Position numbers and translations under genes: made by a program
NCBI GenBank assembly: GCA_945867155.1
Contig: CAMBHL010000001.1
Location: forward strand, 310,001 to 374,000
Direction of reading: 5' to 3'
Source of the DNA: an uncultured Eubacteriaceae bacterium
Lineage (GTDB): Bacteria > Bacillota > Clostridia > Eubacteriales > Eubacteriaceae
DNA length: 64,000 bases
The notes under the pieces: model-generated
Seen by the model: the letters and a program-made list of their open reading frames with translations, nothing else
What the model was told of the DNA's origin: nothing
The model's database searches: none
In this document: positions 53,898-62,635 of the stretch, one piece after another
Numbering within the stretch: the stretch's first letter is position 1
Layout: each line of letters opens with the position of its first letter

Positions 53898-54165
53898 AGA
53901 ACACACACCCCGCTTTGAAAACGGCTTTCGACCGTCCGCCGAGCAGTTAACTCGGGCCAGATGGTTCTGCGGCACATAAGGTTGCCTGCTTACTGCTGCT
54001 TCCTTCCGGACCTGACAGGATTCACAGGGTCTTATTGCGCAGAGTCCAGCCTTCAACGCCACTTACCCGTCGACTGGCATCAATCACCGTTCCCGCATTG
54101 GGGAATTCAACCCTGCTATAGCGGATTGCAGGTTACAGAGCGCCGCTACTGCTCCGTCTAGTGTG
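53898..54165 (-). ncRNA. ffs: Signal recognition particle RNA, large Gram-positive type (with Alu domain)
   Basis: The S domain core GTCAGGTCCGGAAGGAAGCAGC is shown here only by its ends: GTCAGGTCCGG and GGAAGGAAGCAGC. The 5' part has the Alu-domain sequences GGAGCAGTAGCGG, TGTAACCTGCAATCCGC and TAGCAGGG, very similar to B. subtilis scRNA. About 268 bases. The ends are estimated from the promoter and terminator. It binds Ffh to target proteins to the membrane. Confidence 0.94.
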
Positions 54166-54171
54166 AAGATT

Positions 54172-56024: not shown

Positions 56025-56165
56025 TGCTGTCAAAAAATAAGGCTCTCTCCACCCAGGTGAAGAAAGCCTAATAATTCTTGCTTGCGACACCCTCGGCAGG
56101 CTTTTTAAACGTGTGTCCCTGCTGTCTATGGATGAATGATATTCAATTTCCTTATCTCAGACTAG
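56025..56165 (-). promoter_or_regulatory. Ribosomal protein L10 leader
   Basis: On the minus strand the AGACAGCAGGGACA ... AAGCCTGCCGAGGGTGTCGC segment has the pairing and sequence of the L10 leader found upstream of rplJ in Firmicutes. The L10-L12 complex binds it to repress. It is followed by a terminator hairpin. Confidence 0.8.
56031..56069 (-). terminator. Attenuator hairpin in the rplJL leader
   Basis: Minus strand AGGCTTTCTTCACC pairs with GGAGAGAGCCT (with G-U pairs), then TATTTTTT. Lies between promoter and rplJ. Confidence 0.8.
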
Positions 56166-59582: not shown

Positions 59583-60524
59583 TTATGGATGCAAAAAGAT
59601 ATGGCCCATGTAGCGGCTGTACACGTACACGACGAAAAAGACCGCCGCGATCGTTTCAATCATAATGAAAGGCTTGAGGGCCCCGAGGGACACCCCCAAA
59701 CCCGCCGCGCAGGCGACACCTTGCTTCAAGGCGTTGGCCGAAATGACCAGGGGAAAGGTCATGGCCGCAAAGCTCGGATAAAAGGGCAGGCGCAGGCAGC
59801 CCACGGCGTAAATCAGCGCTGCCGCGTATATCGCGGCCGAAACGGCCATCAGGACCAAAAGCACCGTCAGGTTCTTCGGCATCACCGACTGCACATAGGC
59901 GACGGTGCACAAAGACAGCGGCGCGGCGTAAATGACCCCCAGGGGCTTAAAGGGCGTTTCCGGCGGATACTTCACATAACGGCAGGTCACCACAAAGAAC
60001 AGCAGCACAAAAGCGATCAGTCCGAACCAGAAAGAAAAGGTGCCGACGGTCGCCGTGTATCCGAAAACCGGCGCCGTCACGCCGGCGACGGCGATGCCCA
60101 CGTAGACGATGTAAATGACCGCGTAAATCTGCTTCAGCTTAAAGTGCAGAACAAAGCACCAGGTAAACCAGAGGATCAGCGCGAAGTGCAGAGTCACGGC
60201 GCAGAGCCAAAGGCCGCGGCCAAAAGCCAAAAGCCCGGTGTACTGGGCGAGATACACCGCGAAAAACATCAGCCCCATGGTGAAAGTCCCGGCGATGCCG
60301 GCGGTGACCGGCTGATTCAAATCCTGGATCAGCGCCTTGGGAAAACACGCGATTTTGAGGACGATGAGGGCGAACAGGAAGACCGCGGCCGCGCCGCAGG
60401 CCATCCGCCACCCTTCGCCAAAGCTCCGGACCAGGTTGCCCAAAGCGAAGCAGCCGAGCATCACGCCGCTTAAATTGATGGGCACCTTCTGAATCGCAGC
60501 TTTAAAAGCGGATTCGCGGGCCAT
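59583..60524 (-). CDS. TDT family (tellurite resistance/dicarboxylate/sulfite) transporter
   Basis: 313 aa from the ATG overlapping the cooS stop by one base (TGATG); frames opening further upstream lie inside cooS. About ten membrane helices. KVPINLSGVMLGCFALGNL at the N-terminus and FAAMTFPLVISANALKQ near the end are signatures of the TDT family (TehA, Mae1, SSU1), which move monovalent anions or dicarboxylates. Translationally coupled to the CODH-like gene, so it probably carries a substrate or product of that enzyme. Specific ligand unknown. Confidence 0.88.
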   Translation of the reverse strand: MARESAFKAAIQKVPINLSGVMLGCFALGNLVRSFGEGWRMACGAAAVFLFALIVLKIACFPKALIQDLNQPVTAGIAGTFTMGLMFFAVYLAQYTGLLAFGRGLWLCAVTLHFALILWFTWCFVLHFKLKQIYAVIYIVYVGIAVAGVTAPVFGYTATVGTFSFWFGLIAFVLLFFVVTCRYVKYPPETPFKPLGVIYAAPLSLCTVAYVQSVMPKNLTVLLVLMAVSAAIYAAALIYAVGCLRLPFYPSFAAMTFPLVISANALKQGVACAAGLGVSLGALKPFIMIETIAAVFFVVYVYSRYMGHIFLHP

Positions 60525-62635
60525 CAGTCCCATCCCAGAGCTTTGCGCTTCGCCTCCAGATCCCGGACGCATTTTTCACCCAGGGCCTTCGGGTCCGCAT
60601 CGACGACCATGACCGAGCCCAAAGTTTTCTTCGAATCGTACTTCATGTAGGCCGTGACCTTTTCAGAGCCGTAAATCGGCGCTTCCACGCAGTGATAGGA
60701 GCTGATGCCGAAAAGCCGGAAGGCCAGCGCCGCATCGAGGCCTTTTTCATTGGCCCATTCCGGCGATGCAAAGCCGTAGGGCATGTCTTTGATCGCAATG
60801 CCGAGCGCCCCGGCGATGCCGCCGAAGAACGCAGTCGAGCGCGCGTTGTCGATGCATTCGCCCACGTGGAGCACCGGCGGCAGGTTGTGGGCCTTAAGCC
60901 ACCCCTTCAGGGAATCGCCGCAGTGATCCCAGGCCGCGTCCGTCGTCTGGGCGTAGCCAAGCTTGATCAGCGGATAAGACGCGCAGCCGTTGGTGAGAAT
61001 CAGGTAGTTGTTTTTGAGCATCACGTTGGTGTAGTCCACAATGGTCTTTTCGTAGACGACCCGCGGGTTCGTGCAGCCCACGAGGTTGATAATGCCCCGG
61101 ATGGTGCCGTCCTTGAGCGCATCTATCAGCACGTCCAGACCGCCGAAGGCCTTTTTGAAGTATTCCACCGAGAAGCCAACATCCGCCGTGATTTCGTAGG
61201 GCGGAATGGACACCGGCACATCCTTGCGGTTTTCGAAGCTTTCGATGGCGCGGTTTACGATCTTTTCGGCGATCTGCTTCGTTTCGCCGATGTTGGTGTG
61301 GTGGTGGTCGTAGCCGATGTGTTCAGCCCCGGGGAGACGGCCGGAATCGTGGGTCGTCACGACCGTGGTTTTGAAGCACCGGGCCACGTCCATGATCGCC
61401 GGGTACACTTCCTGCACGTCGGCCACCCACAGGTCCAGGGCCCCGGTGGTGATGACCATTTCCGCGCTGATCGCGTTGGACAGCGGAATGACCCCGTCGT
61501 AGCGGTACATGGCCGACAGGCCGCTGCAGCAGATGCCGTAGAACTGGATGCCCTTGGCGCCGGCCGCCTTCGCCTTGTCGATGAACTTCTGGGTCTGGCC
61601 CGTCCGGACGATTTCCCGCACCAGCATCGGCAGGTGGCCGTGGACCGCGATGTTGACGTAATCCTTCTTCAGTGCGCCGACGTTGACCTTCGCCGTTGCC
61701 CGGTCGCCAATGCCGAGGAGCCCGTCTGTGACGATGGACGTCCCGAGCACCGTGCTGAAGGTGAAGGCGAGGCCGTTGCGGAGCATCTGCTGCATGACAC
61801 TCTGCCAGTCGCCGTTGACCCCGACCCCGGTGATGTGATTGGATTCAAAAGTTTCGTGATAGGCGCTCACCGGGATGATGTCCAGGTCCCTCCAGACTTT
61901 CTGGCGTTCCGGCGGTGCGCAGGCGGCGATGGTTTTGTACTGGCCCGGATATGGCGTCGACAAATCGTCAAGCAGCACCTTGCACAAGTCGATGGTGATG
62001 TTCTTGAGCTGACGGTTCTTCGTCTTGATCCCAAATTGTTCGGCCATCGCGCGGATCTTGTATTCCCCTTCGATGGGCACGTCGAGCTTGCCTTCAGCTG
62101 CCCACATCAAATTGAGAATGACTTCCCGTTCGTGCATGCCGTGCTGGGCCACTCCGGCGGCGGCCATCCGGCAGAGGTTCCGGGCGACGATGAGGTCAGC
62201 GTCAGCGCCGCAGACCCCCTTGGGGCTTTTCGGGGTGATCCGGCACGGGCCCATCTGGCAGTTCTTGCAGCAGATCCCCGCGATGCCGAAACTGCACTGG
62301 GGCTTCTGGGCGTCAAAGCGGTCGAAGACGTTGTCGATGCCCAGATCGTCCATCCGGCGCATCAGTTCCCGGATGGCCGGGTCCGGCGTTTCTTCCATCT
62401 GCTGCTTTTTATCCGGGAAGGTCTTTTTATACGCGGCGACCGCCTGCATGTAGTCGTCCTGATAGTCCGCGTCCGTCGTGTGATCGTGTTCGTGGTCGAC
62501 CACCTTCGGAATGCCGTTTTTGTCAAAGCGGATGATCGGCCGGTGGCTGTGATCCCCCGGCGCGTGTTCATGGCCTTTTAAATATTCTGCTTCGTTTTTC
62601 GGATTAAATCCGTGATGATGATGTGTAGTACTCAT
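60524..62635 (-). CDS. Anaerobic CO dehydrogenase (CooS)-like protein with altered C-cluster site
   Basis: 703 aa, about 75 longer than typical CooS. Residues 1-60 are rich in His (HHHH at 5-8, further HxH pairs). Fe-S ligands for D and B clusters: C114, C122, C123, C126, C131, C142. C-cluster ligands by alignment to C. hydrogenoformans CooS-II: H332 (HGH), C370 (GICC), C521 (GCTN), C551 (NGC) and C594 (GEC) are present, and Lys631 and His165 too, but the DVQC cysteine is Glu409 (DVQEVYP). No CooC, CooF or ACS genes adjoin it. It is either a CODH with modified cluster or a hybrid-cluster-like oxidoreductase; CO oxidation is not assured. Confidence 0.85.
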   Translation of the reverse strand: MSTTHHHHGFNPKNEAEYLKGHEHAPGDHSHRPIIRFDKNGIPKVVDHEHDHTTDADYQDDYMQAVAAYKKTFPDKKQQMEETPDPAIRELMRRMDDLGIDNVFDRFDAQKPQCSFGIAGICCKNCQMGPCRITPKSPKGVCGADADLIVARNLCRMAAAGVAQHGMHEREVILNLMWAAEGKLDVPIEGEYKIRAMAEQFGIKTKNRQLKNITIDLCKVLLDDLSTPYPGQYKTIAACAPPERQKVWRDLDIIPVSAYHETFESNHITGVGVNGDWQSVMQQMLRNGLAFTFSTVLGTSIVTDGLLGIGDRATAKVNVGALKKDYVNIAVHGHLPMLVREIVRTGQTQKFIDKAKAAGAKGIQFYGICCSGLSAMYRYDGVIPLSNAISAEMVITTGALDLWVADVQEVYPAIMDVARCFKTTVVTTHDSGRLPGAEHIGYDHHHTNIGETKQIAEKIVNRAIESFENRKDVPVSIPPYEITADVGFSVEYFKKAFGGLDVLIDALKDGTIRGIINLVGCTNPRVVYEKTIVDYTNVMLKNNYLILTNGCASYPLIKLGYAQTTDAAWDHCGDSLKGWLKAHNLPPVLHVGECIDNARSTAFFGGIAGALGIAIKDMPYGFASPEWANEKGLDAALAFRLFGISSYHCVEAPIYGSEKVTAYMKYDSKKTLGSVMVVDADPKALGEKCVRDLEAKRKALGWD

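Follow-up and report, generated by a model that had tools for sequence, protein, structure and literature searches.

A carboxylate in place of a C-cluster cysteine in a clade B CODH of Pseudoramibacter and its relatives, with a possible link to sulfur acquisition

A CODH-like protein encoded in the genome of an uncultured Eubacteriaceae bacterium carries a glutamate where a cysteine ligand of the C-cluster is expected, which raises the question of whether such a protein can still hold a nickel-containing cluster and what reaction it might then serve. We analysed the gene, its surroundings and its homologues starting from a stretch of 64,000 nucleotides (contig CAMBHL010000001.1, positions 310,001 to 374,000), referred to here as the window. 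The host genus is Pseudoramibacter, since the window CODH shares 91% identity with its P. porci counterpart. The features discussed below, all on the minus strand, are as follows.

60524..62635, minus strand: CODH-like gene, 703 aa, CooS-type, clade B structural group B-1 (TIGR01702, PF03063, tree)
62480..62626, minus strand: His-rich N-terminal tail, residues 4-52, with HHHH, HEH, HSH and HEHDH (sequence)
62210..62296, minus strand: D-cluster C114 and C122 (type II spacing, C-x7-CC) and B-cluster C123, C126, C131 and C142 (MAFFT alignment)
61634..61636, minus strand: His334, unique-Fe ligand, equal to H261 (alignment)
61526..61531, minus strand: Cys370, unique-Fe ligand, equal to C295, and Cys369, equivalent of the D. 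vulgaris Ni-incorporation Cys (alignment, PMC6168284)
61409..61411, minus strand: codon GAA, Glu409, replacing C-cluster Cys333 in CODH-II numbering (alignments)
61073-61075, minus strand: Cys521 (alignment)
60983-60985, minus strand: Cys551 (alignment)
60854..60856, minus strand: Cys594, Ni ligand, equal to C526 (alignment)
60731..60751, minus strand: second-shell segment N629-E-K631-G-L-D-A635 (alignment)
59583..60572, minus strand: SLAC1-family anion channel gene, 329 aa (PF03595, 57.6 bits against a cut-off of 27.9)

The CODH-like gene and its product

The open reading frame begins with ATG and is free of internal stops. Its product matches PF03063 in a Pfam profile search and TIGR01702 with 496.5 bits, against a curated cut-off of 478. 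An AlphaFold model of the protein (mean pLDDT 86.8, pTM 0.88) aligned with CooS-type CODH structures with Z scores of 44–49 and an rmsd of 1.7–2.0 over roughly 590–630 residues, and its closest structural matches were true CODHs. The D-cluster pattern C114-x7-C122-C123 is of type II, and the acid-base pair corresponds to H165/K631 in the MAFFT alignment. We also noted a His-rich N-terminal tail that had been overlooked in the initial annotation; it places 11 His within the first 80 residues, and residues 1-32 are predicted to be disordered (AlphaFold pLDDT <50).

Neither a second CODH nor a match to the ACS catalytic subunit (PF03598) was found in the window genome. A role in the acetyl-CoA pathway or a CODH/ACS complex was rejected because the genome has no ACS, and the lack of both genes makes it probable that the protein acts outside ordinary CO metabolism. 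A few kb downstream of the CODH gene lie a large SRP RNA gene (53901-54166, minus strand) and a ribosomal protein L10 leader (56027-56149, minus strand), both of ordinary appearance.

Glu409 occupies the position of a C-cluster cysteine

The initial annotation had placed Glu409, in a clean GAA codon of an intact frame, at the Cys of the DVQC motif, and this placement was confirmed by the reading frame, the codon and gap-free alignments. The plus strand reads ttc at 61409-61411, which gives GAA for codon 409; phmmer aligned DVQEVYP with DVQC of CODH-IV and with DYQC of both CODH-II and Thermococcus CODH2 with no gap nearby; and in the MAFFT alignment Glu409 shares a column with CODH-II Cys333. 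The same annotation had considered the five other C-cluster ligands to be in register, which is correct for C370, C521, C551 and C594; the His ligand, however, is H334, the second His of HGH, and not H332, the first.

Homologues were collected from GTDB genomes and from named genome contigs. A carboxylate was found at the Cys333 column in all 103 of them (79 Asp and 24 Glu; 56–100% identity), a set that includes the window protein and in which some entries are the same gene from two collections. The other five C-cluster ligands were kept in 103/103 of these sequences, and Cys was found at the Cys333 column in 24/24 other CODHs of the same alignment. Chance or sequencing error at Glu409 was rejected on these grounds, as was a pseudogene, since the residue class is fixed throughout the clade.

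A quick maximum-likelihood tree, calculated without bootstrap, grouped the carboxylate proteins into a single clade (SH-aLRT 100), with a Cys-bearing group as its sister (support 96). The exchange of Cys for a carboxylate thus defines one clade, a question that the initial annotation had left to an alignment and tree of this kind. The simplest history would be a single change from Cys to Asp followed by two changes from Asp to Glu, one in a 22-row clade that includes the window protein and one in [Clostridium] polysaccharolyticum.

The variant itself is already known as the mark of structural group B-1 of the clade B Ni-CODHs, which was described by Inoue et al. (2019) as having a type II D-cluster and a carboxylate (Asp or Glu) at the position of the second C-cluster Cys, together with a retained acid-base His and Lys and a His-rich N-terminus (PMC6344411). 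Our use of the clade B label rests on these group features and on our own tree, not on a published reference tree. Clade B CODHs occur widely among fermenters of the gut, rumen and mouth, including Lachnospiraceae, Selenomonas, Veillonella, Prevotella and Clostridium. Their role is called unknown in recent surveys (PMC13056359, PMC13240472), and according to Bohm and Land no clade B CODH has been biochemically characterised (PMC13056359).

Nickel-related residues are kept in an altered pocket

In the D. vulgaris CODH, nickel is held by Cys519 and the unique iron by His266 and Cys302, while Cys340 binds Fe1 of the cubane and Cys301 is required for nickel incorporation (PMC6168284). The ligand replaced in the window protein corresponds to Cys340, and the counterparts of Cys519, His266, Cys302 and Cys301 (C594, H334, C370 and C369, respectively) are invariant. 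The earlier expectation that loss of the Cys should prevent a normal Ni-Fe-S cluster is not supported by this pattern. With the nickel, unique-iron and nickel-incorporation residues intact, a Ni-Fe-S cluster in which one cubane iron is ligated by a carboxylate appears the likelier reading.

Several loci suggest that the carboxylate enzymes still receive nickel. One carboxylate-type CODH has no His tail, and there a CooC-like P-loop ATPase gene overlaps the CODH start (L162 1991-4853), as if chaperone and tail replaced each other. The Ni/Co uptake component CbiM adjoins the CODH-ABC genes in three loci (L091, L120 and L122), hypD and a hypE-like gene lie downstream of CODH in another (L105), and two CbiM genes are present in the window genome. 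The His tail would likewise point to nickel handling.

The pocket around the cluster is altered. Ala replaces Ile567 and Asn replaces His561 in all carboxylate members in which the second-shell segment is present, the acid-base Lys (K631) being retained within it, and in the proton relay His99 is nearly always Glu and His102 hydrophobic. Judging by these replacements, a change of substrate or of rate is likely.

An anion channel gene stands in for the ABC importer

The SLAC1-family gene lies downstream of CODH and overlaps its 3′ end by 49 bases. It is the only SLAC1 copy found in the window genome, and its product has no sequence relatives in the PDB at E up to 1. No SBP of the clade B ABC subfamily was found in the window genome at E 1e-35. 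A survey of 77 named-contig loci, some of them with short flanks, gave 59 with NitT/TauT ABC genes, nine with SLAC1, nine with neither and none with both. The SLAC1 loci fall into two separate clades, one of Pseudoramibacter and Anaerostipes and the other of seven loci from Oscillospiraceae and others, and the position of the gene relative to CODH varies (downstream, upstream or divergent). Similarity to SLAC1 is weak at some loci: it is 29% at L112, and the L109 protein has no Pfam match at 1e-5. SLAC1 proteins carry anions, and since SLAC1 stands in for the ABC importer in two clades, the natural reading is that both types of transporter would serve a common small anion. The replacement of ABC by SLAC1 in two clades, never with both at one locus, is new here.

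The clade B ABC was proposed by Inoue et al. to import a metal such as Ni2+ (PMC6344411). The transporter swap speaks against this, although 3un6 and the locus L152 leave room for it. The clade B SBP is related, after 3un6 as the closest solved SBP, to sulfonate- and nitrate-binding proteins, and Inoue et al. regarded 3un6 itself as a homologue of a metal-binding protein (PMC6344411). At L152 (2136-6886) the same ABC subfamily occurs in the absence of CODH and adjoins an acyl-CoA-dehydrogenase-like gene with a weak match to SfnB of sulfur acquisition; a protein matching the nickel-responsive SCO4226-like family also lies beside this ABC.

Other neighbours vary. A strain with a 99%-identical CODH (L165 / G035:C1:1200253-1203100) has no SLAC1, a GNAT gene following CODH directly, and thus no transporter of either type beside CODH. 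Neither ABC nor SLAC1 is present at two Veillonella loci (L107 2774-8834 and L115), where inspection by eye showed CODH near narK-like, Crp/Fnr-like regulator and nitrate reductase-like genes on opposite strands. The Ruminococcus-type CODH is repeatedly flanked by a pair of small proteins (about 130 and 100 aa) predicted to lie in the membrane (L062, L063, L071, L077 and L080), and an FmdE-domain protein and a 170-aa membrane protein lie near CODH/ABC in the Prevotella-type loci L116, L119, L121, L123 and L126.

Sulfur-linked neighbourhoods among the relatives

CODH is immediately preceded by a SAM riboswitch in Clostridium luticellarii (L103/L036) and in Clostridium sp. D53t1 (L090), the latter locus having no ABC or SLAC1 beside the gene. 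A scan of roughly 0.8 Mb of clade B loci gave no other SAM riboswitch, and by a rough estimate the chance that two elements placed at random would each lie no more than 400 bases upstream and in the correct orientation is a few in 10,000. No riboswitch was found by the window CODH, and an Rfam scan of the cysK-type loci gave no match.

Genes of cysteine and methionine metabolism adjoin CODH in several lineages. The gene orders ridA-metY-metY-CODH, ridA-metY-patB-CODH and CODH-ABC-metY-patB were found in Caldicoprobacter (L128), Acetivibrio mesophilus (L129) and Sporobacter (L106), respectively, where metY (metY/metB) denotes membership of the Cys/Met-metabolism PLP family PF01053 rather than an exact activity. 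Elsewhere cysK follows the ABC genes (L062) or a metY-like gene lies upstream (L121). One genome (G347, L175) carries on one strand, over about 17 kb, metY, CODH-ABC, siroheme synthesis genes, a ThiF/MoeB-like gene, a sulfite reductase homologue and a second metY, and another locus (L130) contains a CymR-like regulator, metY, cysK and a sulfite reductase domain inside one 17 kb. In the sister Cys-type group, nine loci have cysK directly before CODH and the ABC genes after it; cysK takes this position in L050, and in L154 two metY-like genes come next in the run.

An earlier study described the cysK-ABC setting for cooS4 of Calderihabitans, a gene that CO did not significantly induce (PMC7306483). 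In a literature search limited to main articles, we found none that proposes a role in sulfur metabolism for clade B, whether from this setting or otherwise. An earlier mention of the SAM-riboswitch link may be contained in the work of Rodionov (2004) on S-box regulons. The link of the clade B CODH relatives to sulfur metabolism through riboswitches, neighbouring genes and the siroheme island is new here.

This link has clear bounds. Sulfur genes adjoin only a minority of the carboxylate CODHs, their enrichment within loci is not significant (8/283 vs 5/376, p = 0.14), and many neighbour types were inspected, so that single cases are to be weighed accordingly. Within the window CODH has no sulfur-gene neighbour; elsewhere the window genome contains metY-sulfite reductase and metY-cysK clusters. 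A larger share of clade B genomes than of others has sulfite/nitrite reductase domains (13/21 vs 85/370, p = 2.5e-4, uncorrected for ancestry), which leaves the idea of CODH as a stand-in for sulfite reductase unsupported. Sister-group genomes often carry sulfite reductases, and given apparent dsrAB pairs in several of them, sulfide would not be short there.

Proposed function and rival explanations

The reading that we favour, though tentatively, is that the clade B CODH is a nickel enzyme for sulfur acquisition that acts on a small imported anion. The enzyme's own His tail would assist in loading nickel, giving a Ni-Fe-S C-cluster in which Glu409, or Asp in most relatives, would ligate one cubane iron. 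The reaction would be other than bulk CO metabolism, and its substrate would be a small, probably sulfur-containing anion, entering via SLAC1 here and via an Ssu-like NitT/TauT ABC importer in most relatives. Electrons would pass through the B and D clusters, and sulfite or sulfide would be released for the synthesis of cysteine and methionine. A non-CO role is plausible, and a role in sulfur acquisition has moderate support across the clade and less for the window protein. The more specific proposal that carboxylate C-cluster nickel enzymes reductively free sulfite or sulfide from an imported sulfur anion is doubtful at present, and the exact substrate and chemistry are a guess, the candidates being sulfite, thiocyanate, thiocarbonate or a short sulfonate. 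To our knowledge there is no precedent for the use of a CODH scaffold in sulfur acquisition. The initial annotation had envisaged a CODH scaffold turned to another redox reaction, such as reduction of a small N- or S-compound; it stands insofar as the protein probably lies outside ordinary CO metabolism and a small S-compound fits the neighbourhoods of the relatives.

Somewhat less probable still is that the protein remains a CO/CO2 enzyme, a carboxylate-tuned Ni-CODH that oxidises trace CO and supplies ferredoxin with low-potential electrons that could go, for example, to sulfite reduction; the products of the sulfur genes would then draw on these electrons. The retained Ni ligand, unique-iron ligands and acid-base His and Lys, the TIGR01702 score above the curated cut-off and the true CODHs as closest matches of the model are all in keeping with this, but Ile567 and His561 are replaced clade-wide, the His relay is partly lost, the genome is without ACS and without a second CODH, CO needs no anion transporter, and the Calderihabitans cooS4 in its cysK-ABC setting was not significantly CO-induced (PMC7306483). 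The analogy with HCP and CODH-V drawn in the initial annotation leads to an improbable alternative, an enzyme whose Fe-S-O cluster lacks nickel and which would reduce hydroxylamine, NO or a comparable N-compound. A carboxylate does replace one Cys ligand, and CODH C-cluster variants gain hydroxylamine reductase activity (cited in PMC6344411). However, the Glu of CODH-V lies at the Cys295 position (PMC10502027, PMC6344411) and in HCP the counterparts of Cys295 and His561 are Glu ligands and that of Cys333 is Cys (PMC10502027), whereas the window protein has Cys370 and Asn629 at the first two, and a cluster of the HCP or CODH-V kind was rejected on this ligand register. The nickel-related residues and the His tail are also kept, and a true HCP of the hydroxylamine reductase family (TIGR01703) is separately encoded in the window genome (G000:C2:182405-184055; L168 4406-6055).

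We regard it as equally improbable that the NitT/TauT ABC imports nickel and that the clade represents a CODH remnant which handles or stores nickel and is not an enzyme of sulfur acquisition, an explanation that we developed from the metal-import proposal of Inoue et al. 2019. The His tail, the relation of the SBP to 3un6, homologous to a metal-binding protein per Inoue et al., and the nickel-responsive family match near the ABC in L152 would fit such a remnant, but an anion channel stands in for the ABC in two clades and three loci (L091, L120 and L122) carry CbiM besides the ABC. That catalysis has been lost altogether, leaving a degenerate protein or a redox sensor, is very unlikely: degenerated function has been raised as possible for clade B (PMC13056359) and the gene persists without a transporter in the G035 strain, but with very few exceptions about 100 sequences retain the C-cluster ligands, the cysteines of the B-cluster and the acid-base pair, a degree of conservation not expected of a degenerate enzyme.

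The transporter swap and the sulfur-linked loci make the question of the clade B role testable. If sulfur acquisition is indeed the function, genomes counted as CO users from their clade B genes would have been misread, and the enzymes would represent new nickel chemistry. The fixed carboxylate also provides a naturally occurring model for a C-cluster iron with an oxygen ligand.

Comparison with known systems

HCP, CODH-V and the window protein belong to a common superfamily, and all have a carboxylate at a cluster-ligand position. A class III HCP matched the AlphaFold model with a Z score of 26, far below the CODHs, whereas CODH-V reached 46, equal to other CODHs; as CODH-V fits equally well, the fold alone is silent on the type of cluster. 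CODH-V belongs to group D-1, with Glu at C295 and Tyr at the acid-base His, where the window protein has Cys370 and His165. CODH-II of Carboxydothermus hydrogenoformans (clade F) has the same fold (Z about 46-47) and shares the five other C-cluster ligands, H93 and K563 with the window protein, from which it differs in having Cys333, Ile567 and His561 and no His tail, at about 33% identity. The nearest clade in the tree is the sister Cys-type group, which matches group B-4 and includes cooS4 of Calderihabitans maritimus (PMC7306483). It shares Asn561 and the same ABC subfamily with the carboxylate clade, but retains Cys333 and has Gln567, no His tail and cysK directly upstream, at 36–39% identity. 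Compared with group B-1, the window protein shows every defining feature and departs in its neighbour, a SLAC1 anion channel in place of the NitT/TauT ABC.
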